Both the position numbers and the translations under genes were made by a program. The notes below the pieces were generated by a model. The model searched no databases and was not told the DNA's origin. It worked only from the letters and a program-made list of their open reading frames with translations. A DNA stretch of 44,032 nt from a virus: positions 1 through 44,032 of the IMG/VR virus record IMGVR_UViG_3300049203_000098; one strand, written 5' to 3'. Shown here piece by piece: positions 3,783-42,764 of the stretch. Within the stretch, counting starts at the first letter, position 1, and each line of letters opens with the position of its first letter.

Positions 3783-4252
3783 TGTCGGGCAAGCGCCGCT
3801 CCTCGATCGACAATACCCAGCTCGGCTTCACCTTCGAGCCGCCGGCGCCTGCGCGTCGTGAGGCCGATCTGGCGGGGCTTGATCGATACATCGCGGCGAT
3901 CGTGGCGCGCGCGCTGAAGGAGGATAAGCGCGACCGGGCCGTAATAGCCGGCGCCATGTCCTCGCTGCTCGCGGAGCCTGTCACCAGGCTCATGCTTGAC
4001 GCCTACGCCTCAGAAGCCCGCGAAAATCACCGGATTTCAGCCGATCGGCTGCTCGCGCTGATCGCGGTGACGAAGCGCTTCGATCTGCTTGACGCCGCGA
4101 TCCGCCGGATCGGTGCGGCGGTGCTGGTCGGCAAGGAGCTGCACACGGCGCGTCTCGGTCATCTGAAGGCGCAAATGAAAGACTTGCAGGCGGAAATCAG
4201 GGCGGCGGAGCAAACCGTCGCGCCCATCGCGCGGGGGGGCGCATTAGGGTGA
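3782..4252 (+). CDS. Hypothetical helical protein upstream of transposase
   Basis: 156 residues, nearly all helical: VIAGAMSSLLAEPVTRLMLD, then a charged coiled-coil-like end, LKAQMKDLQAEIRAAEQ. The sequence style resembles conserved hypothetical proteins that precede MuA in other Mu-like prophages, but I cannot name a function. Its stop overlaps the GTG start of the transposase (GTGA), so the two are probably translated together. Confidence 0.7.
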   Translation: MSGKRRSSIDNTQLGFTFEPPAPARREADLAGLDRYIAAIVARALKEDKRDRAVIAGAMSSLLAEPVTRLMLDAYASEARENHRISADRLLALIAVTKRFDLLDAAIRRIGAAVLVGKELHTARLGHLKAQMKDLQAEIRAAEQTVAPIARGGALG

Positions 4253-6201
4253 CACCATCAGGGGGCAAAGTCTGGTTTTCCGCAGCCGAGCTGGCCGATC
4301 TGGCGCTGCCCGGTCTGCCCAAGCACAAGCGCAAGCTAAACGAGCTCGCGGAATCGCAGCGTTGGGCGCTGAAGATCGACGCGACCGGCGCGCCGCTTGC
4401 GCGCCGCCGGATCGGCCGGGGCGGCGGGCTCGAATATCATCTGTCGCTGCTGCCGCCATCGGCGCGCATGGAGCTTGCCCGCGCCGGCCTCGAAGAGCAG
4501 GCCACCGTCTCGGCGACGCCGCCCGCGGCGAGCCTCTGGCCATGGTACGAGGCGCAGAGCAGCTCGGTGAAGGCCGAAGCGAGCCGGCGCGTCGCGATCG
4601 TCACCGCTGTCGACAGCTACGAGATGAGCGGGCTCACCCGATCGGCGGCGGTTGCGATGGCGGCGGGCGAGAATCGCGTGTCGACCTCGACGCTGTGGAG
4701 CTGGCTCAACCTCGTCGCCGGCGTGAAGCCCAGCGACCGTCTCCCGCATCTCGCACCCAAGCGGCGCGGCGGTGGCGCGGAAGTCGAGGTCGACGATGGC
4801 GCATGGCAGTTCCTGATTTCGGACTATCTGCGCCCGGAAAAGCCGACCTGGTCGAGCTGCTACTATCGGATGGTGCGCGGTTATGCCGAGCCGCGCGGAA
4901 TCGCGGTGCCGCACGAGCGGACGCTCCGCCGCAAGATGGAGCGCGAGCTCGATCCGCGCCTGGTAGTCGCCCGCCGGGAGGGGGCCGACGCGCTCCGCCG
5001 GACGCTGCCGCCGCAGCAGCGCAGCGTCGCGCAGCTCCACGCGCTCGAATTGGTCAACATCGACGGGCATCGCTGGGACGTCTTTGTGCGCTTCCCCGAT
5101 GGCAAGATCCGCCGCCCGATCAGCGTCGCCATCCAGGACGTCGCCTCGCGCAAGATGCTCGCGATCCGGCACGGCGAAACCGAGGATGCGGTGCTCACCC
5201 GGCTCGCCTTCGCGGACCTGTTCCGCGAATATGGCATCCCGAAAGCCTGCCTGCTCGATAACGGCCGGGCCTTCGCATCGAAGTGGATCACGGGCGGCGC
5301 CAAGAGCCGCTTCCGCTTCCGCATCCGCGACGAGGAACCGCTCGGCGTCCTCACCCAGCTTGGCATCGGGATCCATTGGGCGCTGCCGTTCCGTGGCTCG
5401 TCCAAGCCGATCGAGCGCGGATTCCAGGACTTCTGCAACGCGATCGCGAAGCATCCTGCCTTCGCGGGGGCGTACACCGGCAACAAGCCCGACGCGAAGC
5501 CCGAGAATTACGGCGATCGCGCGGTCGAATGGGAGGTATTCGCGCGGATCGTCGCCGAGGGCGTCGCCGCGCACAACGCCAAGCCGAAACGGCGCACCGA
5601 GCTCGGCCGCGGCATCCACAGCTTCGACGAGGTCTTCAACGCCTCCTACGCCGCCGCGCCGATCGGCAAGGCCACCGAGGAGCAGCTCCGCCTGGCGCTG
5701 CTGACCGCCGACGATCGCGGCACGGATCGCAATTCGGGCGCAATCGAGCTGTTCGGCAACCGCTACTGGACGCCCGAGCTGTCGCAGATCGCCGGCCAGC
5801 GCGTCACGGTGCGCTTCGATCCGGACGATCTCACCCGCTCGATCCACGTCTACACCCGCGACGGTCGCTTCCTGGTCACCGCGCCGCTGCTCGAAGCGAC
5901 CGGCTTCCTCGACGCCGCCGCTGCCAAGAGCCGCGCCCGCCAGGAGGCGGAGCTTCGCAAGACGGCCAAGCGCCTGGCCGAGCTCGAAGGGCTCATCTCG
6001 GCCGACAAGCTCGCCGCGATGCTGCCCGATTATGCCGACGAGCCCGCGCTTCCGGAGCCACGGATCGTCCGTCCGGTGCGCTCGCGCGGCAACACGGCTG
6101 CGGCGCTGAAGGAGGCTCCAAGAGCCGTCCAAGAGCCCTCTGAAAACGCCCTCATCGACCGCTTGGCGGCGGCTGCAAGCCGGCTCCGGCTGGTCGAATA
6201 A
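4249..6201 (+). CDS. A: Mu-type DDE transposase A
   Basis: 650 residues, close to Mu A (663). An N-terminal winged-helix DNA-binding region (WFSAAELADLALPGLPKHK, near 9-27) is followed by further helix-turn-helix regions. The RNase H-like catalytic core has D272 (NIDGHRWDVFVRF), D337 (CLLDNGRAFASKW) and E389 (SSKPIERGF), a full DDE triad. A Mu-type C-terminal barrel covers about 497-551 (IELFGNRYW...VTVRFDP) and a basic tail follows, the part that in Mu contacts B and ClpX. It pairs and nicks the phage ends and joins them to target DNA. GTG start chosen from the overlap with the upstream gene. No defect seen. Confidence 0.96.
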   Translation: MTPSGGKVWFSAAELADLALPGLPKHKRKLNELAESQRWALKIDATGAPLARRRIGRGGGLEYHLSLLPPSARMELARAGLEEQATVSATPPAASLWPWYEAQSSSVKAEASRRVAIVTAVDSYEMSGLTRSAAVAMAAGENRVSTSTLWSWLNLVAGVKPSDRLPHLAPKRRGGGAEVEVDDGAWQFLISDYLRPEKPTWSSCYYRMVRGYAEPRGIAVPHERTLRRKMERELDPRLVVARREGADALRRTLPPQQRSVAQLHALELVNIDGHRWDVFVRFPDGKIRRPISVAIQDVASRKMLAIRHGETEDAVLTRLAFADLFREYGIPKACLLDNGRAFASKWITGGAKSRFRFRIRDEEPLGVLTQLGIGIHWALPFRGSSKPIERGFQDFCNAIAKHPAFAGAYTGNKPDAKPENYGDRAVEWEVFARIVAEGVAAHNAKPKRRTELGRGIHSFDEVFNASYAAAPIGKATEEQLRLALLTADDRGTDRNSGAIELFGNRYWTPELSQIAGQRVTVRFDPDDLTRSIHVYTRDGRFLVTAPLLEATGFLDAAAAKSRARQEAELRKTAKRLAELEGLISADKLAAMLPDYADEPALPEPRIVRPVRSRGNTAAALKEAPRAVQEPSENALIDRLAAAASRLRLVE

Positions 6202-6221
6202 CCAAGGAAGGAACAGGGAAA

Positions 6222-7184
6222 ATGAACCATCCGGACAATGTCACCATCGACATCGAGGAGATGCGCTCCTGGGTGATCGCGGAGAAGGAGCGCCGCTGTT
6301 TCAGTTGGCCCCAACTGGCCGCGCTCATCGGCGTCGCGACCGGCACGCTTTCGGTGTGGGCAGGGGGAAACTACCAGGGCAACAACGAGAAGATCGCGCG
6401 CGAAGTCTTCAAATATCGCCAGATGCTCGACAGCCAGGAGGAGCGGTCGACCGGCATCATGGCCGATCCCGGCTTCTTCGAGACGCCAACCTCTCGCAGG
6501 ATCAAGGCGCTGATGGTGATCGCCCACATGGGGCGCATCACGGTCGCAGCCACCGGGCCGGGAACCGGCAAGACGATGGCCGTGCACGACTATGCGGCCA
6601 GCGCGTCGAACGTCTGGTTCTCGACGATGATGAAGTCGACCAAGTCGCTCAATTCGATGACCGTGCAGGTGCTCCGCTCGATCAACGTCGACGCCAAGCG
6701 GGGATGGGGGATGAACCTTTCGCACCAGGTCATGGACCGGGTGAAAGGCCGCCAAGGCCTTCTGGTGATCGACGAAGCCAACCACCTCGACTTCGAATCG
6801 CTCGAAGAGATCCGCACCTGGCACGATCTCACCGGCGTCGGCGTCTGCCTGCTCGGAAACGAGGAGCTGCTCGCCCGCATAGAGGGCGGGCGCCATCGCG
6901 ACGCGTTCGCCCGGCTCAACAGCCGAATCGCCCAGCGCCACGTCCAGAACCTGCCGCTGCAAGGCGATGTCGAGGCCTTCTGCGATGGCTGGGGGATCAA
7001 GGACTCGGGCATGCGCAACATGCTCTGGCAGATTGCGAAGACGCCCGGAGCCGGCGGTCTCCGCGAGTGCCGCCAACTCGTCGAGCAGGGCAGCATGCTT
7101 GCCCAGGACGAGCATCGCCCGCTCTCCCTCGCCGACCTGCGCGACGCCCAGGCGACGCGCGCGACCCGCTACATCCGGACGTGA
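6222..7184 (+). CDS. B: Mu-type transposition ATPase B
   Basis: 320 residues, the usual size for MuB. An N-terminal HTH-like domain (SWPQLAALIGVATGTLSVWAG, near 29-48) precedes an AAA+ ATPase core with Walker A GPGTGKT at 112-118 and Walker B LLVIDEAN at 180-187. MuB binds target DNA as an ATP-dependent filament, gives target immunity and activates A. The start is backed by AAGGAAGGAACAGGG upstream. It directly follows the transposase. Confidence 0.94.
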   Translation: MNHPDNVTIDIEEMRSWVIAEKERRCFSWPQLAALIGVATGTLSVWAGGNYQGNNEKIAREVFKYRQMLDSQEERSTGIMADPGFFETPTSRRIKALMVIAHMGRITVAATGPGTGKTMAVHDYAASASNVWFSTMMKSTKSLNSMTVQVLRSINVDAKRGWGMNLSHQVMDRVKGRQGLLVIDEANHLDFESLEEIRTWHDLTGVGVCLLGNEELLARIEGGRHRDAFARLNSRIAQRHVQNLPLQGDVEAFCDGWGIKDSGMRNMLWQIAKTPGAGGLRECRQLVEQGSMLAQDEHRPLSLADLRDAQATRATRYIRT

Positions 7185-7192
7185 GGCGGACC

Positions 7193-7363
7193 ATGGGCAG
7201 GATCCGCAAGGCCTGGCAGGCCGCAATCCACTTCTTCGACGAGCCGGAGGGTTTCGAGCCGGTCGGTGTGCCGCGCGGAGACGAGATCACCAGCGATTAC
7301 GGCTGGGTGCCGCTGCTCGGCGGCGGGGCGATCATGATCGCGCTCGCGGTGTTTGTACGGTGA
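7193..7363 (+). CDS. Small membrane protein, unknown function
   Basis: 56 residues with a soluble, aromatic N-terminal half (KAWQAAIHFFDEPEGFEP) and a single C-terminal hydrophobic segment (GGGAIMIALAVFV). GTGAGGCGG stands just before the ATG. Its stop overlaps the GTG of the DnaA-like gene. It could be an inner-membrane toxin- or Kil-like peptide, but nothing specific is recognised. Confidence 0.6.
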   Translation: MGRIRKAWQAAIHFFDEPEGFEPVGVPRGDEITSDYGWVPLLGGGAIMIALAVFVR

Positions 7364-7752
7364 GCGGCGCCGACATCGCCCGGCTGGAGGCGCGCATCGA
7401 ATGCCTCGAACTGGCGATGGCGCAGGTCGCGCCGTCGCCGGCATTCGACCGCTCGATCTCCGCAATCATCCGCGCCGCCGCTTATGAAATTGGCGTCCGT
7501 CCCTCTGACGTCCGCGGCGATTCGAAGCGAATGCCGCTGCCTCGCGCCCGTTTCGCGATCGCCTGGGTCGCGCGCGCCGTCCATGGCTACAGCGCCGCCA
7601 GGATTGGCCGGGCGTTGGGCGGCCGGGATCATACCACCATCTGTCATGCACTGGCGCGCGCCGCGGAGCTGCGCGACTGTGATCCGGCGTTCCGCCGCCT
7701 CACGAACCGCATGGAAGAGCATTTCCGGAAGTTCAACGCGGAGGATCTGTGA
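7360..7752 (+). CDS. Stand-alone DnaA domain IV-like DNA-binding protein
   Basis: 130 residues. After a short coiled-coil-like N-terminus, residues 32-105 read like the C-terminal DNA-binding domain of the replication initiator DnaA: IIRAAAYEIGVRPSDVRGDS, YSAARIGRALGGRDHTTICHA. The GRDHTT signature at 88-93 contains the residues that contact DnaA boxes in true DnaA. There is no AAA+ domain, so it cannot act as an initiator. It might compete with host DnaA for its boxes or act as a regulator of phage transcription (inference). GTG start from the GTGA overlap. Confidence 0.85.
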   Translation: MSGADIARLEARIECLELAMAQVAPSPAFDRSISAIIRAAAYEIGVRPSDVRGDSKRMPLPRARFAIAWVARAVHGYSAARIGRALGGRDHTTICHALARAAELRDCDPAFRRLTNRMEEHFRKFNAEDL

Positions 7753-9723: not shown

Positions 9724-10212
9724 ATGCGCAAGATCAAGTTCATCGTCTTCCATTGCTCGGCGACGCGCGAGGGGCAATCGGTCACGGCCGCCGAGATCGA
9801 CCGCTGGCACCGCCAGCGCGGCTTCGCCAAGATCGGCTACCAGCGCTTCGTCCGTCTCAACGGCATGATCGAGACGGGCCGCTCCGACGAGGAGATCGGT
9901 GCGGGCGTCGCCGGCTGGAACCCCAATTCGATCCACATCTGCTACGCCGGCGGCCTCGCGATCGATGGCGTCACGCCGAAGGACACGCGCACGCCGCAGC
10001 AGAAGACGGCGCTCCGCCAGCTCGCGCTCGATTATCACCGCCTCTACCCGGACGCGAAGATCTGCGGCCACCGCGACATGAGCCCGGACGCCGACCATGA
10101 CGGCGTCGTCGAGCCGCAGGAGTGGCTGAAGGCCTGCCCGTCTTTCGAAGTCGACGACTGGCTTGCGGAGATCGGCATTCCCGATGCCGCGCTGAAGGGG
10201 CCGGCGAAATGA
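9724..10212 (+). CDS. Endolysin, N-acetylmuramoyl-L-alanine amidase (T7 lysozyme-like)
   Basis: 162 residues of Amidase_2/PGRP type. Zinc ligands can be placed at H10 (IVFHCSAT), H116 (ICGHRDMS) and C138 (LKACPSF); Y39 (IGYQRF) and K136 match the catalytic Tyr and Lys of T7 lysozyme. It cleaves the amide bond between MurNAc and the peptide stem of peptidoglycan. There is no signal peptide or transmembrane segment, so it needs a holin to reach the wall. It opens the late region, far from the spanins (16472-17036). Confidence 0.93.
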   Translation: MRKIKFIVFHCSATREGQSVTAAEIDRWHRQRGFAKIGYQRFVRLNGMIETGRSDEEIGAGVAGWNPNSIHICYAGGLAIDGVTPKDTRTPQQKTALRQLALDYHRLYPDAKICGHRDMSPDADHDGVVEPQEWLKACPSFEVDDWLAEIGIPDAALKGPAK

Positions 10213-10520
10213 CCCAGCGCGTCGAACAGAAAGGTGGCGTTGCCACCGGCGCGATCGACGCGGTGGAGGCCGGCGATTGGGTCATCATCGACAAGCTGTT
10301 CAACTTCGCGCTGAGCGGCACCTTTGTCGGCACGCTCATCCTGGAGCGCAGCTTCGATGCCGGCGCGACGGCGCTGCCGATCACGCTCGTCGATGGCACG
10401 GTCAAGGAATTCACCGCGCCCGATTCCGCCGTGCTCGAAGAGCCCGAAAGCGGCGTCCTCTACCGCGTCCGGGCCACCGCCTGGACGAGCGGCACGGCCA
10501 ACTGGCGGTTCAGCAAATGA
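10209..10520 (+). CDS. Hypothetical virion-associated beta protein
   Basis: 103 residues starting in ATGA overlap with the endolysin. Beta-rich (GDWVIIDKLFNFALSGTFVG, LYRVRATAWTSGTANWRF), likely a small beta-sandwich domain resembling those in tail or head decoration proteins. The set 10209-11304 precedes the phosphatase gene and may form one structural unit with it. No family name can be given. Confidence 0.6.
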   Translation: MTQRVEQKGGVATGAIDAVEAGDWVIIDKLFNFALSGTFVGTLILERSFDAGATALPITLVDGTVKEFTAPDSAVLEEPESGVLYRVRATAWTSGTANWRFSK

Positions 10521-10672
10521 GCGTCCAAGCGCCCCAAGCCCCGAAGGTGCGCAGCCCGCTGCGCAGCCCCATCGTCAGCGGCGGTGAGCGCTCGGACGGC
10601 TCGCTGCCGTCGCTCGACTTCGCCTTGGCCAGCAACAGCCAATACGTCGCCCTCGTTTTTAGGAGCTTCTGA
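10517..10672 (+). CDS. Small hypothetical protein
   Basis: 51 residues, ATGA overlap upstream and TGATG downstream. Pro/Ser-rich N-terminus (SVQAPQAPKVRSPLRSPIV) then a short region ending QYVALVFRSF. No family recognised. The tight overlaps support translation. Confidence 0.5.
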   Translation: MSVQAPQAPKVRSPLRSPIVSGGERSDGSLPSLDFALASNSQYVALVFRSF

Positions 10673-11304
10673 TGGCCACCATGCAGGTCAGGAATGCCGC
10701 TGGCGGCGTCGAGACGATCCAGAAGCCGAACGCCAATGGCCGGGCGGCGGAGGCGAACTCTTCGCCCGTCGCGCTTTCGAGCGAGGACAAGGCGGCTCTC
10801 GACCAGCTCGCGACCGGCATCGACGGAGTAGGATCGAACACGGCCGACACCGCGGCCGCGCTCGGGGAAATCTCCGACAAGATCGACGTCCTGCAGACCG
10901 CCATCGACAATCTGCTCGCCAAGGCGACGTCGAGCGACGCCAGCCTCGACGTGCTCGCCGATGACGTGAACTCGGGCGCGCCTGTCGACGTGACGAGCGA
11001 CCTGCTCGGCGCGACCGGGCATGAGGAGGTGGCGGCGTCGGCGGCCGACCAGGTGCTCGGCGGGGCCGGTGGCGCCGGCGACATCCTCGCCGGGCTGGTG
11101 ATCGTGCCGGCGACCACATCGCCGGGCGCGGTGTCGATCAAGGACGGCGCGTTATCAGCGATCATTGTGTTCGCCGGCGGCGCGTCGAGCGTCAGCAACC
11201 TTGTGCCATTCTTCGTGCCGCTGGGGATCAAGTCGGCCAACGGCGCGTGGAAGGTGACGACGGGGACGAACGTCTCGGTGATCGCCATCGGCAAGTTCAC
11301 CTGA
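10672..11304 (+). CDS. Hypothetical structural protein with helical N-terminus
   Basis: 210 residues. AGGAG lies 8 bases before the ATG. Residues 35-90 are a helical, heptad-like region (EDKAALDQLATGIDGV, then ISDKIDVLQTAIDNLL), and the C-terminal third is beta-rich (GAVSIKDGALSAIIVFAGG, then TTGTNVSVIAIGKF). This trimeric-stalk-plus-beta-domain look fits a small tail or fibre component. No specific family recognised. It overlaps the phosphatase start by one base. Confidence 0.65.
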   Translation: MATMQVRNAAGGVETIQKPNANGRAAEANSSPVALSSEDKAALDQLATGIDGVGSNTADTAAALGEISDKIDVLQTAIDNLLAKATSSDASLDVLADDVNSGAPVDVTSDLLGATGHEEVAASAADQVLGGAGGAGDILAGLVIVPATTSPGAVSIKDGALSAIIVFAGGASSVSNLVPFFVPLGIKSANGAWKVTTGTNVSVIAIGKFT

Positions 11305-13097
11305 TGCGCTGGCGGCCGGGCTTCCACCTGACGCAAGTTGCGGCGCTGACGGCTGGGGCAGTCACCGGCCTCGTCACCTCGACATGGATCGGGGTGCCGA
11401 CGCCTGACGGCGTCTATGTGTCGTCGCGGCTGGCGAATGACAGCTCGGACGTGAAGCTCGTCATTTCGACCAATGCGGACCTGTCGTCGCCGGTGCAAAC
11501 GACATCGGCCGTCTCGTCCACGAACAGGATCGCGCGCCACACGGTCACCGGGCTCAACCCCAATACGACCTATTATTGCGGGCAGAAGGTCGATGGCCTC
11601 CTGGACATCGGCAAGATCGGCAAGTTCAAGACCGCACCCACCGCGGGCTCGCAGGCGAGCTTTCGCTTTGCCGCGGCCTCGTGCGCCGCAGTGGGCAGCA
11701 ACCATGCTGTCTATGACGCGATCCGGGCGGTTAACCCGGCCTTCTTCGTCCACATGGGCGACATGCACTATGCCGACAGCACGTCGACGGACGAAGCGGT
11801 GCGCCAGGCGCTCTATGACGATGTGCTGGCGCTGTCGAAGCCGGGGCAGCTCTTCCGCGAGGTTCCCTGCCCGTACATCTACGACGATCACGATTTCTGC
11901 GGAAACAACAGCGACAGCACGAGCACCGGGGCGACGGCCGCAAAGGCGGCTTTCCGCGCTCGCGTTCCCGTTCCTGTCGCGTCAGGCGCAGGCGGCGCGA
12001 ATTACTACAGCTTCGTCTATGGCCGGGTCCGCTTCATCGTCACGGACCTGAGATCGGCGCGATCGCCGGTCGGGGATACCGACAATTCGTCCAAGACGAT
12101 GATGGGGGCGACGCAAAAGACCTGGTTCAAAGCCGAGCTGGATGCGGCGGTGGCGGCGCATCAGGTGATCGTCTGGGTCAGCAGCGTGCCCTGGCTTGAG
12201 ACGACCGCCAACAATGACGACGGCTGGGCTGACTACAACACCGAGCGCGTCGAGCTCGCCGATTACATGAAGGCGAACGGGGTTGCCTCGCGCATCCTGA
12301 TCTCGTCCGGCGACATGCACGCGATCGCCTGGGGGGCGGTCGATTATGCGACCGGCGGCGGCATGCGGATCCCGGTCTTCCATTCCGCGCCGCTGGATCG
12401 CACGCCATCGAGCAAGGGCGGGCCGTATGACGCCGGCCCGTTCCAGAACAATAATCAGTTCGGCTATTTCGACGTAACCGACAATGGCGCGGCCGGCGTC
12501 GTCTTCGCCTACACCGGCACCAATTCGGCGGGTGGCACCGTCACCAGCACGAGCGTCACGCTAGGCATCCGCGACGCACAGATCAGCATGGGCACGGCCT
12601 CCGCGCTCACCGGCTGGAACCGCACTGCGAATACCACCGTCTCGACGCCCTTCGCCAACCTCAACGACGACAAGGGCATCCCGACCGGCTGGGGTTTCCA
12701 AATCACCAATGCGGGATCCAGTGCGTCCGGCACCAACGGCATGACGGGGGTGGCGGGCGGCTTTCCCTTCCCCGATGCGGTCATGCAAGCGCATCTGGCC
12801 GAGACGGGCGGGGACGGGATCGCGGTCAAGTGGACCGGCCTCAATCCGAACAAGCGCTACCGCATCCGCGCCACGGCGGCGCGCAACTCGACGGGGTCTC
12901 GCAACTGCGACTTCGCGGTGAATGGCGGCGCGGTCCAGACGATCGAAGCGATCGGCAACGTGTCAAACTATGCCGAGTTTGCCGCCGTTGCACCGAACGG
13001 CTCGGGCGAGATCAGCCTCACCGTGGCGCGCGGCTCGGGCAACGCATCGACCGTCTACCTGACGGGTGCAATAATTCAGGAGCGCGACAATGTCTGA
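11304..13097 (+). CDS. PhoD-like metallophosphatase (phage surface enzyme)
   Basis: 597 residues. An N-terminal Fn3-like domain (near 20-110, ending FKTAPTAG) is followed by a calcineurin-like core of the PhoD type: HMGDMHYAD at 150-158, YIYDDHDF at 191-198 and ISSGDMHA at 333-340, the metal-binding motifs. PhoD enzymes are phosphodiesterases/alkaline phosphatases acting on teichoic acids, phospholipids or other phosphoesters. From about 445 a separate beta domain resembles an adhesion or carbohydrate-binding module. There is no signal peptide, and the gene sits amid tail-fibre genes, so I infer a virion-bound enzyme acting on host surface phosphoesters. The start at 11304 overlaps the upstream stop. 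Confidence 0.85.
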   Translation: MRWRPGFHLTQVAALTAGAVTGLVTSTWIGVPTPDGVYVSSRLANDSSDVKLVISTNADLSSPVQTTSAVSSTNRIARHTVTGLNPNTTYYCGQKVDGLLDIGKIGKFKTAPTAGSQASFRFAAASCAAVGSNHAVYDAIRAVNPAFFVHMGDMHYADSTSTDEAVRQALYDDVLALSKPGQLFREVPCPYIYDDHDFCGNNSDSTSTGATAAKAAFRARVPVPVASGAGGANYYSFVYGRVRFIVTDLRSARSPVGDTDNSSKTMMGATQKTWFKAELDAAVAAHQVIVWVSSVPWLETTANNDDGWADYNTERVELADYMKANGVASRILISSGDMHAIAWGAVDYATGGGMRIPVFHSAPLDRTPSSKGGPYDAGPFQNNNQFGYFDVTDNGAAGVVFAYTGTNSAGGTVTSTSVTLGIRDAQISMGTASALTGWNRTANTTVSTPFANLNDDKGIPTGWGFQITNAGSSASGTNGMTGVAGGFPFPDAVMQAHLAETGGDGIAVKWTGLNPNKRYRIRATAARNSTGSRNCDFAVNGGAVQTIEAIGNVSNYAEFAAVAPNGSGEISLTVARGSGNASTVYLTGAIIQERDNV

Positions 13098-13112: not shown

Positions 13113-13349
13113 TTATCCTGCCGGCTTGATCCGGCACTCTATGCAGAGATCGCTGTGCATGATGGCTTGCTTGCCGCAACGCAGGCAGCCTTCGCGATAT
13201 TTGACCGGCCAAAAGCGAAACAGCGCAACCATTCCGAGCACCAACAGGATCGACGGGAGAATCCCGATCGCTCTAGCGAACGGCGCGACCAACATTGCCA
13301 CCACGATCGCGAAGAGGACGGTTCCGGTCAATGAAGGGGTCTTGCTCAC
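13113..13349 (-). CDS. Antisense two-helix membrane protein with zinc ribbon
   Basis: 78 residues on the minus strand inside the plus-strand late operon. A GTG start at 13349 has GGAG 6 bases upstream. Two hydrophobic segments (about 9-25 and 29-47: VLFAIVVAMLV, ILPSILLVLGMVALF) are followed by CLRC and CIEC, a likely zinc ribbon, and a short basic end. Third codon positions are GC-rich on this strand, supporting coding. Being antisense it must have its own promoter and could be expressed in the lysogen; exclusion of other phages is a guess. A longer reading frame continues upstream but looks unlike protein. Confidence 0.65.
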   Translation of the reverse strand: MSKTPSLTGTVLFAIVVAMLVAPFARAIGILPSILLVLGMVALFRFWPVKYREGCLRCGKQAIMHSDLCIECRIKPAG

Positions 13350-13469
13350 TAGCTGCTCCGATTTCCAAATAAACCCAGTCCCATCAGGACCTTCGGCATC
13401 AACAGCCGTTACTAGGTTGGAACGAAGCCGCGCAATCCTGGACGTGCCCAATATGGCGAGTGTCCCGCT

Positions 13470-13721: not shown

Positions 13722-16292
13722 ATGCCGAACAGTAAAATCTCTCAACTTCCTCCTTTGCCGAGCGCGCCGCAGGACACCGACGTCGTCGTGATCGAGCGGT
13801 CAGGCAGCGAGTTTCGCGAGCGGATCGACGCGATCAAGGTGGCGATCGGCGCGACCAGCGATATCAGCTTCGCCTTCTCGCCGGCGAATACCAATGAGGA
13901 CGCAAACAACGTGGCGTCGCCCGGGACGCAGATCGCCACGATCACCACGCCGGCTTCGGGCTCCTGGACCTACGCGCTGGAGACGGTGAACGGCGCCTAT
14001 GACGGCTATGGCCGCGTGGCGATCGGCAGCGGTGCCAACAACAACAAGATCTATCGCACGGGCATTCCGCTCGATCGGGAATATTCCGCGTCGCTCACCA
14101 TCGGCATCGTCGCGACGCGCGCTGATCCCTATCTGCAGGTAACGGTTCGACTGCCGCTCGCAATCAACGACGTCGACGAGGACGGCGCGAGCCCGACGCA
14201 GGATTACGACTTCATCGCCGGCGTCTACACGGGCGGCGCGAGCCTCGCCCAGCTGGGCGCGGTTTCCGGCGACGTGACCTCGCTTGGGCTGCTGGTCGAG
14301 GGCGTGCCGGTTGAGCATCTGCTCCGGAACGCGATGATGCCGGGGCAGACGGGATGGTCTTCGGGATCCGGCATCAGCTTTTCGACGCAAGCGGCTTCGG
14401 GCGGGTTCACCCCGATCGACATCACCGACGCCGGCTTTGGCGGATTTCGCCAGCAGACGACCGCGCGCAGCTTCACCGCCGGCGAGAAGGTGTTGCTGAA
14501 GGTTCGCTTTGGCTCGGTGGCGGGCGACACGACAAACAAGTGTCGCATCCGGATGACGGGCGCGTTCAGCGACACGATCGACTTTGACGGCACGCACAGC
14601 GCGCCGGCAACGCAGACGGGCGGCACGGGCGCGAGCATGACGGTCGTCAGCAAGGTCGCGATCGACAGCACGACGACCGAAGTCGTCCTGCTGTTCACCG
14701 CGACGGCGACCGGCACCCTGACGATTGCCGTGAACGCGCGCAACGCCGGTAAGGTGCGGCTCTGGGGCGCGCAGGCGATCGTCGGCACGGTCGACAAGGC
14801 CTGGCGGCAATCGAGCACCGCCGACACGGTGCCCGGATTCACGCCGACGCTTTCCGGTGCGTTGCTCAGCCTCTTGCAGGCGAGCGCGTGGACGCTGGCG
14901 CTGGAACTGAACGGCAATGGCTACAACCATGTGGTGCCGGGCAATATCCTGTCGTCTGGCGCGACGACCGGCCTTGAAAACGTCGCGCTCAAGATGGCGG
15001 GCTACACCCACGTTTCGAACGCTGATGGCAGCGAGATCGCCACCTTCTGCCGTTCGGGCTTCCTGGGCATCACGCGCATCGTGATGGCGCGCGACGGCAC
15101 CGACATGATCGTTGCTGTCAACAAGGACGAGCCGGTTACTATGAGCGCGCCGGCGGCGATCGGGGCAGTCTGCAAGATCCTCGGCAGCAACAACGGCTAC
15201 GTCCGCCGCCTCTCCGCCTGGAACAGCAAGCTCACCAATCTGGCGCAGCTCCGCGAGATTTCCAGCATCACCAATCGCAGCTTCGCGAATATCGGGCAGG
15301 CTTTCCTGCCCAGGCCGGCGTTCGAAGTCGACAAGTGGACGATGACCGAGGACGTCATCCGCATCAACAATTCGAACGGGCTCAACTTCACCCAGTCGAG
15401 CTTCACGGACGGCGCGAACCGCTATTATCAGGCGGGCCAGCTCGCTGCGAACACGATGAGCAACGGCAAGCCCAAGCCGCTCATCCCGCGATATGCCTTC
15501 CACAATGATCCGATGGGCGGCAAGCTGCAGTCGATCAACGGCGAGAAGCAGCTGTTCCTTGATCCGCAATGGATGGCGGCGCAGGCGGCGCTGGGCGTCG
15601 ATTGGGGCGGTTATGCGCCCTTCACCTATCCGGCGAGCGTGCCCGGCGCGAAGGCGAATTCGGTGCTGCGCATCAACTGCCAGCTCACCGCCAACCTGCC
15701 CGCGAGCGCCCAGGCTGTCATTCCCAATGAGCAGCAGAACAGCAGTTCGACCGCGCTCTCGACCAAATGGAAATGGGTCTCCGGCTGCTTCACCACGGGC
15801 TACGGCAAGATCGAATATGGCAAGGGCCATTGCGTCTCATTCCGCATGCGCTTCGGATCGCAGGCGGTCGACAATCTCGCCAAGGGCGGCTGGGGAGCCG
15901 GGTGGCTATATACGCACTCCGGCAATCACGAAATCGACACTTGCGAGACCAATGGTGGCCGGCCTTTCCGGAACAATCAGGCCGTCCACGCCAATAATTT
16001 CGGGTACAACAATTCGACCAATAAGGATCTTGCCGCGCGGCTCGTCGGCGAGTTCCACAACTACCAGTCCGATTGGCGCGAGGATGGCGTCTATTTCGGG
16101 GTGAGCGGTCTCGCCACCGCCTTCATGCCGATGTCTGCTTATGCGAGCTTTCAGAACACACCGCAGTTCCTGCTCGGCGATTACGCCATCGATCCAGGCA
16201 ACATCTGGGGCCAGGCGCCAGACGCGACGACCGACGCCGCCGCGCCGCTCTTCGTCGACTACGACGACATCTGTGTCGATCGCACGATCTAA
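13722..16292 (+). CDS. Tail fibre with GH16-like lectin/glycanase domain
   Basis: 856 residues. The N-terminus (KISQLPPLPSAPQDTDVVV) is of the kind that anchors fibres to phage tails. Two or three beta-sandwich regions follow (about 45-540). The C-terminal 300 residues resemble glycoside hydrolase family 16: HEIDTCETNGG with E737-I-D-T-C-E742 fits the EIDxxE catalytic signature, and GEFHNYQSDWREDGVYFGVSG is the following conserved strand set. GH16 enzymes cut beta-1,3/1,4-glucans or galactans; in a phage fibre this suggests a depolymerase for capsule or exopolysaccharide. The substrate cannot be told. No signal peptide. Confidence 0.8.
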   Translation: MPNSKISQLPPLPSAPQDTDVVVIERSGSEFRERIDAIKVAIGATSDISFAFSPANTNEDANNVASPGTQIATITTPASGSWTYALETVNGAYDGYGRVAIGSGANNNKIYRTGIPLDREYSASLTIGIVATRADPYLQVTVRLPLAINDVDEDGASPTQDYDFIAGVYTGGASLAQLGAVSGDVTSLGLLVEGVPVEHLLRNAMMPGQTGWSSGSGISFSTQAASGGFTPIDITDAGFGGFRQQTTARSFTAGEKVLLKVRFGSVAGDTTNKCRIRMTGAFSDTIDFDGTHSAPATQTGGTGASMTVVSKVAIDSTTTEVVLLFTATATGTLTIAVNARNAGKVRLWGAQAIVGTVDKAWRQSSTADTVPGFTPTLSGALLSLLQASAWTLALELNGNGYNHVVPGNILSSGATTGLENVALKMAGYTHVSNADGSEIATFCRSGFLGITRIVMARDGTDMIVAVNKDEPVTMSAPAAIGAVCKILGSNNGYVRRLSAWNSKLTNLAQLREISSITNRSFANIGQAFLPRPAFEVDKWTMTEDVIRINNSNGLNFTQSSFTDGANRYYQAGQLAANTMSNGKPKPLIPRYAFHNDPMGGKLQSINGEKQLFLDPQWMAAQAALGVDWGGYAPFTYPASVPGAKANSVLRINCQLTANLPASAQAVIPNEQQNSSSTALSTKWKWVSGCFTTGYGKIEYGKGHCVSFRMRFGSQAVDNLAKGGWGAGWLYTHSGNHEIDTCETNGGRPFRNNQAVHANNFGYNNSTNKDLAARLVGEFHNYQSDWREDGVYFGVSGLATAFMPMSAYASFQNTPQFLLGDYAIDPGNIWGQAPDATTDAAAPLFVDYDDICVDRTI

Positions 16293-16855: not shown

Positions 16856-17036
16856 GGATCTGCGCTGCCCGGATGAGCCGACCGCGCCCGCCGAGGATGC
16901 GGACGAGCAGACCGGGCTGGCCTTCGACGCCGCCGTCCGTTCGGCCGGCCAGAGCTGCCGTGACGCGCTCGGCCGCGTGTGCCGCTGGCATCGCGGGAAC
17001 GGCATGGACGTGACTTGCGCGGAAGCGGCTCCCTGA
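16752..17036 (+). CDS. o-spanin lipoprotein (Rz1-like), nested
   Basis: 94 residues starting inside the i-spanin gene in another frame. The N-terminus (MRLTPLLAMLAVIIIAVSGC) is a lipoprotein signal with lipobox VSGC, cleaved before the cysteine at residue 20. The mature part has CPDEPTAPAEDADEQ, a Pro-rich stretch as is common in Rz1, and cysteines that may pair. Overlapping Rz/Rz1 genes are typical of two-component spanins. Its stop overlaps the spike gene start. Confidence 0.75.
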   Translation: MRLTPLLAMLAVIIIAVSGCSSRRAPLAILHPPAEDLRCPDEPTAPAEDADEQTGLAFDAAVRSAGQSCRDALGRVCRWHRGNGMDVTCAEAAP

Positions 17037-19825
17037 TGTCCGTCTTTCCGAGCGCCACGCCAGGCGCCCCTGATCTCAGCACCACGCCCAGCTCGCGCGA
17101 ATCCCTGGACGTGCGAGTCACCGCGCTTGAGCAGCAGGCCTCAAGCGAGGCCGCGGCTCGCGCGGCGGCCGAGGAGACCATAACCGGCGCGATCGCGACC
17201 GAGGCGCAGACGCGCGTGGATGGCGATCAGGCGAACGCCGAAGCGATCGCGGCCGAGCAGGCGGCGCGCGTCGTCGCGGTGCAGGCCGTAGACGATCGGA
17301 TCGGCGACGAGATCATGGTGCGCGCCGATGCCGACGAGGCGCTGAGCGACCGGATAGGCGGCGTCGAGAGCGCAATCAGCGGATTCGACGGTCGCGCCGA
17401 CACCCTCGAAGCCGCCGTGCAGGCGGTAGACGGCCGGATTGACGGCGAGATCACGGCGCGCGCCGATGCGGATACGGCGCTAAGCGACCGGATAGGGGCC
17501 GCCGAGAGCGCGATCAGCGGCCTTGATGGTCGCGCGGACACTCTGGAGGCGGCCGATACAGCTGAGGCTGCTGCCAGGGCCGCCGGCGACGCCACGAACG
17601 CCGGCGCGATTGCCTCCGAAACCGCTGCGCGGGTGGCTGGCGACGCCGCAAATGCCGGTGCGATCGGCGTCGAGCAGGCGGCGCGCATATCCGGCGACAC
17701 CGTGCTTCACGGCCGCATCGACGGCGAGATCGCGGCCCGCACCGCAGCGATCACCGGACTTGGCGAAGACATCGCGGCTCTCGGCCAGGAGGTGGACGCC
17801 GCCGTCGCTACGGTCGACCAGGAACAGGCCCGCGCCCAGGCCGCCGAGCTACAGCTTTCCAGCCAGATCGATGCGAACGCGGCGTCCACCACGACGCAGA
17901 TGAACATTGATCGCGCGGCGCGAATCCAGGGCGACCAGGTCAATGCCGACGCGATCAGCGCCGAAGCCGCCGCCCGCGTGGCCGGCGACAGCGCGAACAC
18001 GGCCGGGATCCTTGCTGAGCAGGCCTCACGCATCACCGGCGATAACCAGCTTCACGCGCGAATCGACGGCGAGATCGCCGCGCGCGAGGATGCGATCGAC
18101 GGGATCGAGCAGGAGATCGCGGCCGTCCAGGTGACCGACACCACGCACGATGCCCGAATCTCGCAGCTCGAAGCGCACCAGGCGGACTGGCTCGATACGG
18201 TGGACTTCGGAGCGTATGTCGCGGATCTGCCGGTTGCCTCGCCGAACGATGTGGCTAGCGCGGGCGACGCGATGATCGTGATCGGCGGTGTACCCAAGCG
18301 CTTCACCGTCAATCTATTCGCGAGCCGGAAGACGGCGGACCTCAATCCCCTCGTGCAGCTGCTCGGAAATGAATGGATACCATCGTTCCAGGAAAGCACC
18401 GGGCTAGAGGGAAAGATCGCCCTTAACGCTATCATGCGGATGACTACCGGCGTCATCAATCCGAAGCTGCCGCCGTACAATTGCAAGGGCGATCTGCGCG
18501 AAACCAAGCTCGCATCGTGCAGCTCGGGGTCAAATATCATCACCTGCTCGGAGGGCATGTTCGTCCCCGGCGATGTCGGCAAACTCTGTTATCTTTCCAA
18601 CGCCGGGCCGAGCTTCAGCATCCTCGAAACAACGATCATCGGCTACATCAGCTCGACGCAGGTAACGATCGCCACCAACGCCAGCGTCTCGAAACCCGAT
18701 AACCAGATGTTTTGGGGCACCGATGACACGGCGGGCATGCAGCTGGCGCTCAACGATATCGCTGCGCCTGGCAAATGGACCTATGGAGGCTGCGTCGCGA
18801 TCCCGCCGGGCATGTATCTGGTGGGACCGCTCACCTACAAGGCGAAGACGTGCATCTTCGGTTACGGCCGCCGGCAGTCTGTTCTTTGCCGGAAGCCAAC
18901 CAGCTCCACCAATCCGATCCTGAGAAACTTCGATAATCAGGTCGATTTCCCTGTCATCCAGGGACTCGGCATCTACGGGATGCAATATGTCCAGCGCGTC
19001 GGCTTCGGCTCGCGTGGGATTGAGTTCATCTCAGTGTTGCCCGGCTCGGCACAGGACACGCTGCCGCAGGTCGACCCCTATCCTTTCTTCAAGGATCTCG
19101 CGATCTTCGGCTGCGCGTGGGACGGGCTCTACACCTATTACCGAAACTCCGGCGATCTAGTCTCAATCGACCTCTACGAGAACTGGGGCAATGGCTGGCT
19201 GAGCAACAGCTACGACATCAACGTCATGAACATGCTGGCGATCGCGAACCGATCCGCCGGCGTGAACCTCGACAGCAACGGCTCCGCCAACTGCAACATC
19301 AACAACCTGAAGGCGAGCTACAACGGTGCTGGCCCCGGTTCGGATACCCAGGAAGAGGCGTGCAACCTGCTGGTAGCGGGCTTCGGCCATAACATCACCA
19401 ATGCGCGATGCCAGGAAAGCTTCGGTTGCAACGTCGTCATAAAGGGCGGCTATAACAAGTTCGGCGACTTGAGCTGCGACGACACGGCCTGCATCAAGCC
19501 AGCGCATGGCTCGGGGCCGAGCTATTCGACGACGCTGGCGAACATCCGCGCGGACATACTCTTTCTCGGCCCTGTCTGCGTCGGCAATTTCATCAACGAC
19601 GCTGCGTGCGGTCGATCGGTCCACGGCGTGAGCTATCAGTGTCAAACCGCCTTCATGTCCGGCAATGCGAGCAGCAATCGCGGCCGCATCGTCACGCGAC
19701 CTGGTACGACCTACGGGGGTTATCTCCCCGGCTCCGGCCCCTACGCGCCCGGCCCGACCGGTACCGATAGCTCGGGCGGCTGGGGTGCGACGAACCACAT
19801 CTATCTCAACGACACGCTCATCTGA
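17036..19825 (+). CDS. Tail spike with long coiled coil and beta-helix domain
   Basis: 929 residues. Residues about 20-380 are an Ala-rich, repetitive trimeric coiled coil (units like AARAAGDATNAGAIASE, RIDGEIAARADA). After a linker, the sequence from about 555 (FWGTDDTAGMQLAL, then GGCVAIPPGMYLVGP) is the standard opening of phage pectate-lyase-like right-handed beta-helices, which bind or cleave surface polysaccharides. The start at 17036 overlaps the o-spanin stop. A 138-bp tandem duplication lies in the stalk. Catalytic residues cannot be assigned. It is probably a second receptor-binding protein beside the GH16-like fibre. Confidence 0.8.
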   Translation: MSVFPSATPGAPDLSTTPSSRESLDVRVTALEQQASSEAAARAAAEETITGAIATEAQTRVDGDQANAEAIAAEQAARVVAVQAVDDRIGDEIMVRADADEALSDRIGGVESAISGFDGRADTLEAAVQAVDGRIDGEITARADADTALSDRIGAAESAISGLDGRADTLEAADTAEAAARAAGDATNAGAIASETAARVAGDAANAGAIGVEQAARISGDTVLHGRIDGEIAARTAAITGLGEDIAALGQEVDAAVATVDQEQARAQAAELQLSSQIDANAASTTTQMNIDRAARIQGDQVNADAISAEAAARVAGDSANTAGILAEQASRITGDNQLHARIDGEIAAREDAIDGIEQEIAAVQVTDTTHDARISQLEAHQADWLDTVDFGAYVADLPVASPNDVASAGDAMIVIGGVPKRFTVNLFASRKTADLNPLVQLLGNEWIPSFQESTGLEGKIALNAIMRMTTGVINPKLPPYNCKGDLRETKLASCSSGSNIITCSEGMFVPGDVGKLCYLSNAGPSFSILETTIIGYISSTQVTIATNASVSKPDNQMFWGTDDTAGMQLALNDIAAPGKWTYGGCVAIPPGMYLVGPLTYKAKTCIFGYGRRQSVLCRKPTSSTNPILRNFDNQVDFPVIQGLGIYGMQYVQRVGFGSRGIEFISVLPGSAQDTLPQVDPYPFFKDLAIFGCAWDGLYTYYRNSGDLVSIDLYENWGNGWLSNSYDINVMNMLAIANRSAGVNLDSNGSANCNINNLKASYNGAGPGSDTQEEACNLLVAGFGHNITNARCQESFGCNVVIKGGYNKFGDLSCDDTACIKPAHGSGPSYSTTLANIRADILFLGPVCVGNFINDAACGRSVHGVSYQCQTAFMSGNASSNRGRIVTRPGTTYGGYLPGSGPYAPGPTGTDSSGGWGATNHIYLNDTLI
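17276..17551 (+). repeat. 138-bp tandem repeat in spike stalk
   Basis: Two consecutive 46-residue units (81-126 and 127-172), each beginning AVQAVD and ending GRADTLEA, with most positions identical. The duplication lengthens the coiled-coil stalk by a whole unit and keeps the frame. Confidence 0.75.
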
Positions 19826-19834
19826 GGAGCTGCA

Positions 19835-20134
19835 ATGCCGCACGCCCACCATCATCTGCCGCACCTAAACGAAGTCGGACCCAACCTCGTCGCCGCGATG
19901 CAGTCCGTTTCGGCCGGCCTGAGCGCGATCGCCGGCAACGACGCCGAAAAGTATCGGCTCATCAAGGAGCAGGTGGAGGCCGCCGCCGGTTTCACCGGCG
20001 AATATGAACTCACCGCCGATCAGCTGGAGGGCGTGAGGGCATCGTTCCGCGAAAACCGTGCGGCGATGCTGAAACGGCTGCGCGCCTTCGTCCGCACCGT
20101 CGAGCGCGACATCAAGGCCGAAAATGCAGGCTGA
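19835..20134 (+). CDS. Hypothetical protein, His-rich start
   Basis: 99 residues; GAGGAG lies 5 bases before the ATG. It begins PHAHHHLPHLNEVGPN and continues as helices (DAEKYRLIKEQVEAAAGF, RASFRENRAAMLKRLRAFV). Possibly a spike-associated or lysis-related protein; no family recognised. It overlaps the next gene by 11 bases. Confidence 0.6.
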   Translation: MPHAHHHLPHLNEVGPNLVAAMQSVSAGLSAIAGNDAEKYRLIKEQVEAAAGFTGEYELTADQLEGVRASFRENRAAMLKRLRAFVRTVERDIKAENAG

Positions 20135-20633
20135 CCGATCGAACCAAATCCAGCGACAGGTGGCTTTTGCCTTGAAGATCGCGCGGCCACTTGCTGGGGC
20201 AATGTTCGGCGCGGGCATGGCGAGCATCGCGAAGGCCGCTGCGCCGGGATCGCCGGCCTTCGGCCCGCATGCCGTGATCGCGTTTGGCGTCGAGGTGCCG
20301 GTGCTGTCGGCGCTGTTCGGGTTGATCGGCGTGGTGCTGGCGCGGCGCGTAGCCCCGGCGACGGACGCGGGCGCGAAGCTCGGACCCGGCGGCAATGCGG
20401 CGCTCACCGCGCTGCTCGCGCTCGGCGTGCTCGCGCTCATCGTGACGGGCGAGAAGCGGCCGATCGTCGCGCTCGGGTGGAGCGTCGGGCTCGGCTATTC
20501 CGGCCTCGCCTTCATCGAGATGGTGGCGCGCGGGGTGATGACCGGATCGCGCGTGGCGATCGAGACATTTTCCAAGGTGATCGTGGCGCTGGCGGAAGCG
20601 CGGCAAGGCAAGGGCGGTGGCGATGGGCGTTGA
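20124..20633 (+). CDS. Multi-pass membrane protein, holin candidate
   Basis: 169 residues. Hydrophobic segments are visible near 21-37, 50-72 (FGVEVPVLSALFGLIGVVLA), 92-108 (ALTALLALGVLALIV) and 114-135, with a charged, Gly/Lys-rich C-terminus. Size, topology and position between spike and head genes suit a holin, and the endolysin without signal peptide needs one, but no holin family signature is certain. It could instead be a structural membrane protein of unknown role. Confidence 0.6.
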   Translation: MQADRSNQIQRQVAFALKIARPLAGAMFGAGMASIAKAAAPGSPAFGPHAVIAFGVEVPVLSALFGLIGVVLARRVAPATDAGAKLGPGGNAALTALLALGVLALIVTGEKRPIVALGWSVGLGYSGLAFIEMVARGVMTGSRVAIETFSKVIVALAEARQGKGGGDGR

Positions 20634-21000
20634 TTGGGAAGTAATAGTTTCGATCGGGATCATGATCCTGGTCGCGATCGCGATCTGGCGCGGCGGCGGC
20701 AAAAACCCGGTCGGAACCGGGCAGCTGCAGCGCCAGCTCAACACAATCGGCGCGAAGGTCGGCCAGATCGAGGCCGCGCTGAAAGAGACATGCTCGAAGA
20801 ACGACCTTGCCGAGATCCGCGGCGAGCTGAGCGAGATCGAGGCGCGCACCGCATCGAGCAGGGAGGTGCTGGCGATCGAGGCGCAGATCTCAGGACTTCG
20901 CGCAGAGATCACCGCCGCGGTGAAGGCGGCCGACCGCACCGAAGCATCCGTGCAGCGGATCGAGGGATATTTTCTTCAGAGGGGGATCGACGGACGATGA
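20623..21000 (+). CDS. DUF2730-like membrane coiled-coil protein (Mu gp25 type)
   Basis: 125 residues from the ATG at 20623 (AGGG 8 bases upstream; a GTG at 20617 is the alternative). One N-terminal transmembrane segment (VIVSIGIMILVAIAIW) is followed by a long helical region (LQRQLNTIGAKVGQIEAAL). This matches the small DUF2730 proteins that start the head operon in Mu-like phages. In Mu this neighbourhood includes lysis genes, so a spanin-like or lysis-accessory role cannot be excluded. ATGA overlap with the next gene. Confidence 0.7.
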   Translation: MGVDWEVIVSIGIMILVAIAIWRGGGKNPVGTGQLQRQLNTIGAKVGQIEAALKETCSKNDLAEIRGELSEIEARTASSREVLAIEAQISGLRAEITAAVKAADRTEASVQRIEGYFLQRGIDGR

Positions 21001-21299
21001 GCTACGCGGACCATCTTGCCGAAAATAGGCGGCTCGCGGTGCTGAAGCTGCTCGTCGAGGAGTGCGGCCATTTGAACGACAGCGTGCTCGAGCTCGCGCT
21101 GCGCGAGATCGGGCACCGCAAGAACCTCGATCGCGCGGCCGTGCGCCAGCTCGTCAAGGATCTGGAAGAGCGCGGCTGCGTGACTGTCGAAATGGTGCGC
21201 GACGTCGTCATGGTCGCGCACATCACCCAGCGCGGCCGGCTCGCCGCCGCGGGCGACGTGTCGATCGGCGGCATCGCTAGCCCGCACGGCGGGATCTGA
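20997..21299 (+). CDS. Mu gp26-like protein
   Basis: 100 residues. The pattern ENRRLAVLKLLVEECGHLND, LDRAAVRQLVKDLEERGCV, VAHITQRGRLAAAG is that of the Mu gp26 (VpaChn25_0724-type) family, a predicted winged-helix protein. It always lies just ahead of the terminase genes. Its exact role is unknown; DNA binding during packaging is plausible. Confidence 0.8.
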   Translation: MSYADHLAENRRLAVLKLLVEECGHLNDSVLELALREIGHRKNLDRAAVRQLVKDLEERGCVTVEMVRDVVMVAHITQRGRLAAAGDVSIGGIASPHGGI

Positions 21300-21300
21300 G

Positions 21301-21864
21301 ATGGCGCCGCCACGCCGCCACCGGCGTTCCTCGGTCGACCGGCTCGATCCCGAGGTGCGCGAACTCATCGGCAAGCTCCGCATCGACTTCGGCTGGACGA
21401 TCGACGAGATCCTCGCGAAGCTGCGCGAACTCGGCCAGGGCGAGGTTTCGCGTTCGGCGCTCGGCCGGCACGTCAAGTCGCTCGAGGAGATCGGCGCGCA
21501 GCTCCGCCACAGCCGCGAAGTGGCGAAGGCGCTGATCGACCAGGTCGGCGACGCGCCCGAGGATCGCACCGCCGATCTCAACATCGAGCTGATGCACTCC
21601 ATGATCCTCCGCCTTGTTACCGCCACCAACGACGAGGGCGACGGCGGGCCGATCACGTTCGGCCCGGAAGACGTGATGTTCCTGACGCGCTCGCTCCAGG
21701 CGCTCGCCGGTGCCCGCAAGACGAACGCGGACATGGTACTCAAGACCCGCGAAGCAGCCACCAAAGAGGCCGCTAAGAAGGCCGGCGCGGCGGCGAAATC
21801 GGCGGGCCTTTCGAAGGAGACCGTCCAATTCATCACCAATGCCGTGCTGGGCGCGGAAGCGTGA
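21301..21864 (+). CDS. Small terminase subunit (DUF3486, Mu gp27 type)
   Basis: 187 residues. The start (PPRRHRRSSVDRLDPEVREL) and the helix-turn-helix region (WTIDEILAKLRELGQGEVSRS, SALGRHVKSLEEIG) are typical of DUF3486, the small terminase of Mu-like phages. It would recognise phage DNA at the left end for headful packaging. The C-terminal half is helical and Lys-rich. It overlaps the large terminase by GTGA. Confidence 0.87.
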   Translation: MAPPRRHRRSSVDRLDPEVRELIGKLRIDFGWTIDEILAKLRELGQGEVSRSALGRHVKSLEEIGAQLRHSREVAKALIDQVGDAPEDRTADLNIELMHSMILRLVTATNDEGDGGPITFGPEDVMFLTRSLQALAGARKTNADMVLKTREAATKEAAKKAGAAAKSAGLSKETVQFITNAVLGAEA

Positions 21865-32225: not shown

Positions 32226-32410
32226 TGAACGATCTTTACCTGAAGCCCGGCGAAGGCCGCCGCGTCCGCAAACCGGACGGGCTGCTGCTCGACGCCGAGG
32301 GCGAGTTTGTTTCCCGCGAAACATACTGGCTGCGCCGCCTGGATGACGGCGACGTCGTCGAGGCCGATCCGCCCAAGCCCGCCCGCGCCGCCAAGGGAGC
32401 CGACGCATGA
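32225..32410 (+). CDS. gp38-like protein (DUF2635)
   Basis: 61 residues. The stretch VRKPDGLLLDAEGEFVSRE then YWLRRLDDGDVVEADPPK is diagnostic for DUF2635, the small protein just before the sheath gene of Mu-like phages. Function unknown. It overlaps the stop before it and the ATG after it. Confidence 0.87.
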   Translation: MNDLYLKPGEGRRVRKPDGLLLDAEGEFVSRETYWLRRLDDGDVVEADPPKPARAAKGADA

Positions 32411-42281: not shown

Positions 42282-42764
42282 ATGCACCGTATCGACGCAC
42301 CCAACAACGTAGGCGGAATGTTTGTGGACACGGTTCCGGGGACGGCCGTGGACGCCGACTGGGCCAACGCGGTCCAGGAGGAGATCGTCAACGTCATCAC
42401 CAATCCCGCCGGCGGCGACGAGGCGCTGGTGAAGGGCAACAACACCCAGCTGCTCGCAGCGATCCTGAACATCGTCGCCGGCAACCTGCCGCGGAGCCTT
42501 ACGAATGACGGCTATTACACCTTCCCCGGCGGCTTCGTCTTGCAGTGGGTCCATCTCACCGCGAACGGCAACGCATCGACCAACTTCCTTTGGCCGACCG
42601 AGTTTGACACCGCCTGCTTCGGCGCCTGGTGCAACGGCGGCTGGAATGATCTCGATGCCCAGGACAACAATCCATTTGTGAGCGTCAAGAGCGTCACCGG
42701 GGGCACCGTCTTCTCGGCGACGGGCGTAAACACCGCCACGGTCGTCTTCGGCATCGGCCACTGA
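42282..42764 (+). CDS. Short tail fibre protein (gp53-like C-terminus)
   Basis: 160 residues. HRIDAPNNVGGMFVDTVPGT then VDADWANAVQEEIVNVI is the usual start of fibre proteins of Mu-like phages, and the end (TFPGGFVLQWVHLTANG, FDTACFGAW) resembles the gp53-like fibre tip. It is much smaller than Mu S; the main receptor-binding proteins may be those at 13722 and 17036. No invertible segment or invertase follows. Confidence 0.82.
   Translation: MHRIDAPNNVGGMFVDTVPGTAVDADWANAVQEEIVNVITNPAGGDEALVKGNNTQLLAAILNIVAGNLPRSLTNDGYYTFPGGFVLQWVHLTANGNASTNFLWPTEFDTACFGAWCNGGWNDLDAQDNNPFVSVKSVTGGTVFSATGVNTATVVFGIGH

Follow-up and report, generated by a model that had tools for sequence, protein, structure and literature searches.

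The stretch of DNA analysed here (the window, 44 kb) is a virus record from IMG/VR. It encodes the proteins by which a Mu-like phage is recognised, namely a MuA-type transposase (4249-6201, plus strand), MuB, the Mor activator, a Mu-type head and a contractile tail with a Mu-type sheath (32407-33873, plus strand). Also encoded are an Amidase_2 endolysin, a terminase with its large subunit TerL (21861-23375, plus strand), portal, MuF-like protein, protease, a Mu-like major head protein and the tail tube, tape measure, hub and wedge. As judged from this gene content, the window is a Mu-like myophage. Relatives of its MuA occur in phages of Sinorhizobium, Thiobacimonas, Ochrobactrum and Rhodovulum and on plasmids of Pannonibacter and Azospirillum, and the host is therefore probably a member of the Alphaproteobacteria, despite the top single phage match of MuA being a Microcystis record. 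A ParB-like gene lies in the early region of this transposing phage (1618-2685, plus strand), and a D12-class adenine methyltransferase is encoded at the far right end of the genome (42790-43716, plus strand).

Between the endolysin and the terminase, outside the main tail operon (32.4-42.8 kb), lies a gene for a PhoD-family metallophosphatase (11304-13097, plus strand, 597 aa). The region opens with the Amidase_2 endolysin at its left edge (9724-10212, plus strand), whose end is overlapped by the gene of a small beta protein (10209-10520, plus strand), followed by a gene for a 210-aa, possibly fibre-like protein with a coiled coil and a beta domain (10672-11304, plus strand), for which neither the databases nor the phage records yielded a relative. 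The TGA of this gene and the ATG of phoD overlap as TGATG, suggesting that the two are translationally coupled. Downstream of phoD, a minus-strand ORF (13116-13430, 105 aa read) runs opposite to the direction of the locus; its product is hydrophobic in the middle, ends in a CxxC...CxxC segment and has no Pfam match. Next come an 856-aa protein with a fibre-type N-terminus (KISQLP) and a C-terminal GH16 glycan hydrolase domain akin to endo-beta-1,3-1,4-glycanases (13722-16292, plus strand), and a tail spike or fibre with an N-terminal coiled coil and a pectin-lyase-like segment (17036-19825, plus strand). The GH16 protein, which was not detected in seven related records in a search run without a positive control, retains an intact EIDTCE motif at residue 737 and is likely, from its sequence, to be an exopolysaccharide depolymerase. 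Genes syntenic with those of sister phages (20124-21864, plus strand) form the right edge before TerL.

Two sister Mu-like phages (G002 and G003), whose major head proteins are about 70% identical to that of the window, have the same locus edges, formed on the left by transposase, MuB, Mor and endolysin and on the right by the small genes that precede TerL, and hold a single fibre-like gene of approximately 1150 aa between them. The N-terminal coiled coil of the G002 fibre is homologous to that of the window spike (38% over 117 aa, E 1e-12), and since the sister phages hold their fibre in this interval we regard it as the fibre locus. The preliminary description had placed the phosphatase among tail genes in a fibre module and called it unusual for Mu-like phages. 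The fibre locus with its spike and GH16 neighbours agrees with the former and the single fibre of both sister phages with the latter, but the gene is not part of the main tail operon, and a short gp53-like fibre is still found at the usual Mu position (42282-42764). By eye, the sister fibres of approximately 1150 aa contain GDS and DxxH-like motifs, which are suggestive of an SGNH esterase, while Pfam found no family in them.

The phoD reading frame runs from an ATG at 11304 to a stop at 13097 with no internal stops. Its product matches Pfam PhoD (PF09423) at residues 122-353 with 74.1 bits (E=1.5e-20; cut-off 27) as well as PHROG 13624 ('hydrolase', 2e-84) and PHROG 24476 ('phosphodiesterase', 1e-64), and scores 44.9 bits against the equivalog model for secreted alkaline phosphatase PhoD (NCBIfam NF058638), for which the cut-off is 1000. 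Structure prediction, which had been proposed as a check, returned a PhoD fold: an AlphaFold2 model built on a 35-sequence alignment has a pLDDT >90 over most of residues 20-420, covering the N-terminal beta domain and the phosphatase core, with the first 15 residues disordered and a low-confidence beta-sandwich at about 490-597. The best match among solved structures is Bacillus subtilis PhoD (2YEQ; VIA-align Z 36.2, rmsd 2.6, 383 residues), followed by purple acid phosphatases near Z 32, with other metallophosphatases also below 2YEQ. The metal ligands of the B. subtilis enzyme (C180, D207, D265, D266, N271, N272 and D436), replacement of which abolishes or strongly reduces activity (PMC4223295), have counterparts in C127, D153, D194, D195, N201/N202 (with a one-residue indel) and D337 of the window protein, in which Y156 and H339 are likewise present. 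By profile, modelled fold and metal-ligand residues, the gene product is a PhoD-family enzyme.

Within this protein a variable lead (residues 1-20) is followed by an Fn3/PhoD_N-like beta domain (20-115), the metallophosphatase core (115-425) and a CBM-like beta-sandwich (about 430-597). Weak PhoD_N and Fn3-like Pfam matches at residues 30-93 and the modelled beta-sandwich agree with the Fn3-like and beta-domain flanks described beforehand. Folded alone, the C-terminal domain reached a pLDDT of 55 and matched generic beta-sandwiches including CBM35 but also toxin domains; CBM35 was also matched by the whole model, and the phage records searched contained no match to this domain, which we assign on these models no further than 'CBM-like'. 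Purifying selection acts on the core (dN/dS 0.08-0.10 between the window PhoD and three relatives), and the C-terminal domain changes faster (0.21-0.25, window PhoD and two relatives), as one would see in a conserved catalytic unit joined to a surface domain that evolves more quickly. The absence of internal stops, the family match, the fold, the metal-ligand residues and the dN/dS values together uphold the initial view of an intact metallophosphatase; family match, fold and dN/dS also rule out a chance ORF in a GC-rich frame. The protein shares with B. subtilis PhoD, a secreted phosphodiesterase whose proposed substrate is wall teichoic acid, the fold, metal-ligand residues and N-terminal beta domain, but differs from it in being phage-encoded within a fibre locus, in having no Tat signal, in its low identity (20%), and at the C-terminus, where the B. 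subtilis enzyme has a capping helix in place of the CBM-like domain.

A scan of viral contigs for close relatives yielded three records (L002, L003 and L004) encoding PhoD proteins with 82% identity to that of the window (79-81% at the DNA level). Outside PhoD, the only similarities to the window within the stretches compared are a diverged endolysin in L003 (39%) and the C-half of the spike in L004 (78%). The DNA homology of phoD starts past residue ~20, and in L004 it ends at the start of the C-terminal domain, which is replaced there. The gene order in L004 is lambda-J-like central tail protein, tail lysozyme-like protein, PhoD, PHROG-17064 protein and spike C-half. L002 and L003 have in common one continuous 3.8-kb block around PhoD, and in these two records spanin or amidase genes lie directly upstream of PhoD. 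From these sequence comparisons, PhoD appears to pass as a module between phages with otherwise unrelated backbones, as adsorption modules do.

Profile scans identified PhoD at 18 viral and 21 cellular loci and in 64 phage records, a sample rather than a census because the relatives were picked by similarity to the window sequence. Several of the viral domains are embedded in proteins of 1000-1850 aa, and the number of residues outside the core is higher in viral (median 292) than in cellular PhoDs (84). Tape-measure, J-type and other structural proteins are among the gene neighbours of the more distant viral PhoDs, whereas in Streptomyces phage Warpy and Microbacterium phage Pumpernickel phoD lies outside structural clusters, with tRNA, hypothetical or metabolic neighbours. 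In a maximum-likelihood tree the viral/cellular label needs 3 changes, compared with 15 in shuffles, and the window PhoD groups with the proteins of Nostoc phage YongM, Anabaena phage Elbi and other phages (99/93). The only cellular row within the viral clade comes from an Ignavibacteriales MAG contig (L047), which does not contradict a phage lineage since the gene reads as frameshifted and sits among other ORFs that look IS-like (1249-2621, inspected by eye). The phage lineage on the tree and the locus edges shared with the sister phages also rule out cellular contamination or a recently acquired host gene.

The N-terminus of the window PhoD (MRWRPGFHLTQVAALTAGAVTG) contains no twin-arginine motif, and its peak hydropathy (1.75) is ambiguous by itself. 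The values for two of the 82%-identical relatives are 0.63 and 1.0, and these near relatives, in which the N-terminus is variable and by simple hydropathy not strongly hydrophobic, are the main reason why the earlier statement that the protein lacks a signal peptide can stand. Peak N-terminal hydropathy across the wider set, compared by simple hydropathy and not by a trained predictor, had a median of 1.14 in viral relatives and 2.55 in cellular relatives (p=1.8e-6), and by eye most of the cellular proteins carry signal peptides or lipoboxes. This difference bears on the main alternative, that phoD is an auxiliary metabolic gene (AMG) whose product, synthesised by the infected cell and then set free, lets the host or its community gain phosphate from organic phosphorus. 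Phage phoD is usually read in this way in soil viromes, where it is the commonest phosphorus AMG, and one phage enzyme, PhoD22, has alkaline phosphatase activity in vitro (PMC10987575). The soil-virome genes belong to the same domain family and have conserved DDH(E/D) and DxH motifs; they were interpreted as serving host phosphorus acquisition, and tails and signal peptides are not mentioned in the main text of that study (PMC10987575). An AMG product would have to gain access to organic phosphate outside the cell before the host dies, but no export signal was seen in the lineage of the window, whose relatives do without the signal carried by cellular ones, so that lysis would be the enzyme's only way out and would come too late to benefit that host. 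The gene also sits in a fibre locus and not beside phosphate genes, its L004 counterpart is accompanied by the same spike C-half, and the YongM homologue occurs in particle preparations (PMC8875764). We therefore consider it improbable that phoD serves here as an AMG.

YongM is the closest isolated relative. In its reported LC-MS/MS results the PhoD protein (5775-7658) ranks 7th of 32 with a score of 1132 and 35% coverage, and its operon neighbours were also detected, while DNA polymerase and thymidylate kinase each scored 19 (PMC8875764). The authors placed PhoD under DNA anabolism, and the account of the sample describes no gradient, so lysate proteins could have been carried along (PMC8875764). 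The gene lies in a minus-strand cassette of capsid-fibre-like genes (MT426122.1, 4156-9086), which looks like one structural unit because PhoD and four neighbours were detected in the phage preparation. The YongM and Elbi proteins resemble that of the window in tree lineage, in core identity (39-41%), in having no signal peptide and in belonging to a structural cassette; they differ in coming from an unrelated phage type and host, in their capsid-fibre-type flanks and in their C-terminal domain. The annotated capsid-fibre protein after phoD in YongM and the similar one before it, an arrangement also found in Elbi, would fit a head decoration that acts on the capsid next to capsid fibres and not on the tail. 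Next to the window phoD, however, the searches revealed no homologue of a capsid fibre, and both there and in L004 the gene has spikes or J-like tail proteins as neighbours, making a capsid location highly improbable.

The enzyme could instead be a soluble factor of the lysis stage, freed together with the endolysin and clearing receptor-bearing debris so that progeny escape, and never bound to the particle. The position of phoD close behind the endolysin and ahead of the fibres, the spanin or amidase genes that precede it in L002 and L003, and the fact that Pfam and PHROGs recognised no tail-attachment domain in the protein, whose first ~20 residues differ between phages, are all compatible with this. 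Against it stand the YongM particle proteomics, as far as reported (PMC8875764), and the many viral PhoDs that form part of giant multi-domain proteins, and we regard a purely lytic role as unlikely.

We consider it likely, then, that PhoD is a phosphodiesterase or phosphomonoesterase assembled on the particle, forming an exchangeable adsorption module with the GH16 protein and the pectin-lyase-like spike. This reading draws on the enzyme fold, the metal ligands, the fibre locus, the exchange between phages, the phage lineage, the relatives free of export signals and the YongM data. Of the suggestion made at the outset, that PhoD is a virion enzyme acting on envelope phosphates, the virion half gains indirect support from the locus, the exchange, the lineage without export signal and the reported YongM mass spectrometry (PMC8875764), and an envelope phosphate substrate is plausible by analogy with PhoD biochemistry and from the neighbouring glycan hydrolases. 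PhoD would be made late, remain unexported and join the particle; at adsorption its CBM-like domain may bind a surface glycan, and the Fe/Ca centre would hydrolyse phosphoesters in a phosphate-bearing polymer such as a phosphorylated capsule, exopolysaccharide or LPS. Its action would expose or loosen the surface layer while the co-encoded GH16 and spike enzymes attack the glycan itself. Several points count against a particle-borne PhoD: the purity of the YongM preparation, the unrecognised mode of attachment, and the presumed Gram-negative host, which would offer PhoD no teichoic-acid substrate. A one-base deletion towards the end of phoD leaves a YongM mutant infectious (PMC11356776), which means that the protein is dispensable at least in its C-terminal part. 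In the virion data of Thermobifida phage P1312 no coverage value is given for the PhoD protein, ORF22, but neither is one given for the neighbouring tail protein, ORF21 (PMC4569894). A paper on the tail structure of Anabaena phage A-1(L) does not mention a phosphatase.

P1312 ORF22 is nevertheless a close parallel, being a PhoD-type phosphodiesterase with a C-terminal CBM-related domain whose gene directly follows those of tail proteins, but it is longer (1096 aa) and its phage infects a Gram-positive bacterium that carries lipoteichoic acid. The authors of that study suggested that the protein is secreted, excludes superinfection or hydrolyses the wall (PMC4569894). The principle of a particle-borne phosphodiesterase directed against a surface phosphate polymer is also seen, in the examples described, in the baseplate glycerophosphodiesterase of Lactobacillus phage Ld17 and in GDPD-type tail-associated lysins of enterococcal phages, which differ from the window PhoD in belonging to the GDPD family and in acting on Gram-positive teichoic acids (PMC10194240). 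Phage PhoD genes, one of them active (PMC10987575), and GDPD-type particle phosphodiesterases in phages of Gram-positive hosts (PMC10194240) are already known. What is new is the combination of a PhoD-type enzyme, a Mu-like phage, a presumed Gram-negative host, a fibre locus, exchange among unrelated phages and overlooked virion data.

More broadly, and only tentatively, phage PhoDs without signal peptides might largely be phage-specific, particle-borne surface phosphoesterases that move as adsorption modules between unrelated phages, even those of Gram-negative hosts, in which case many of the phoD 'AMGs' of viromes would be adsorption enzymes and the target here would be a phosphorylated alphaproteobacterial surface polymer. 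Particle-borne phage phosphodiesterases have so far been mainly of the GDPD type and directed against Gram-positive teichoic acids; if our interpretation is true, a phosphorylated surface polymer would be a barrier or a receptor in a presumed Gram-negative host. Attention to export signal, locus and virion proteomics would then offer a simple correction to the common reading of viral phoD as an AMG in studies of phosphorus cycling.
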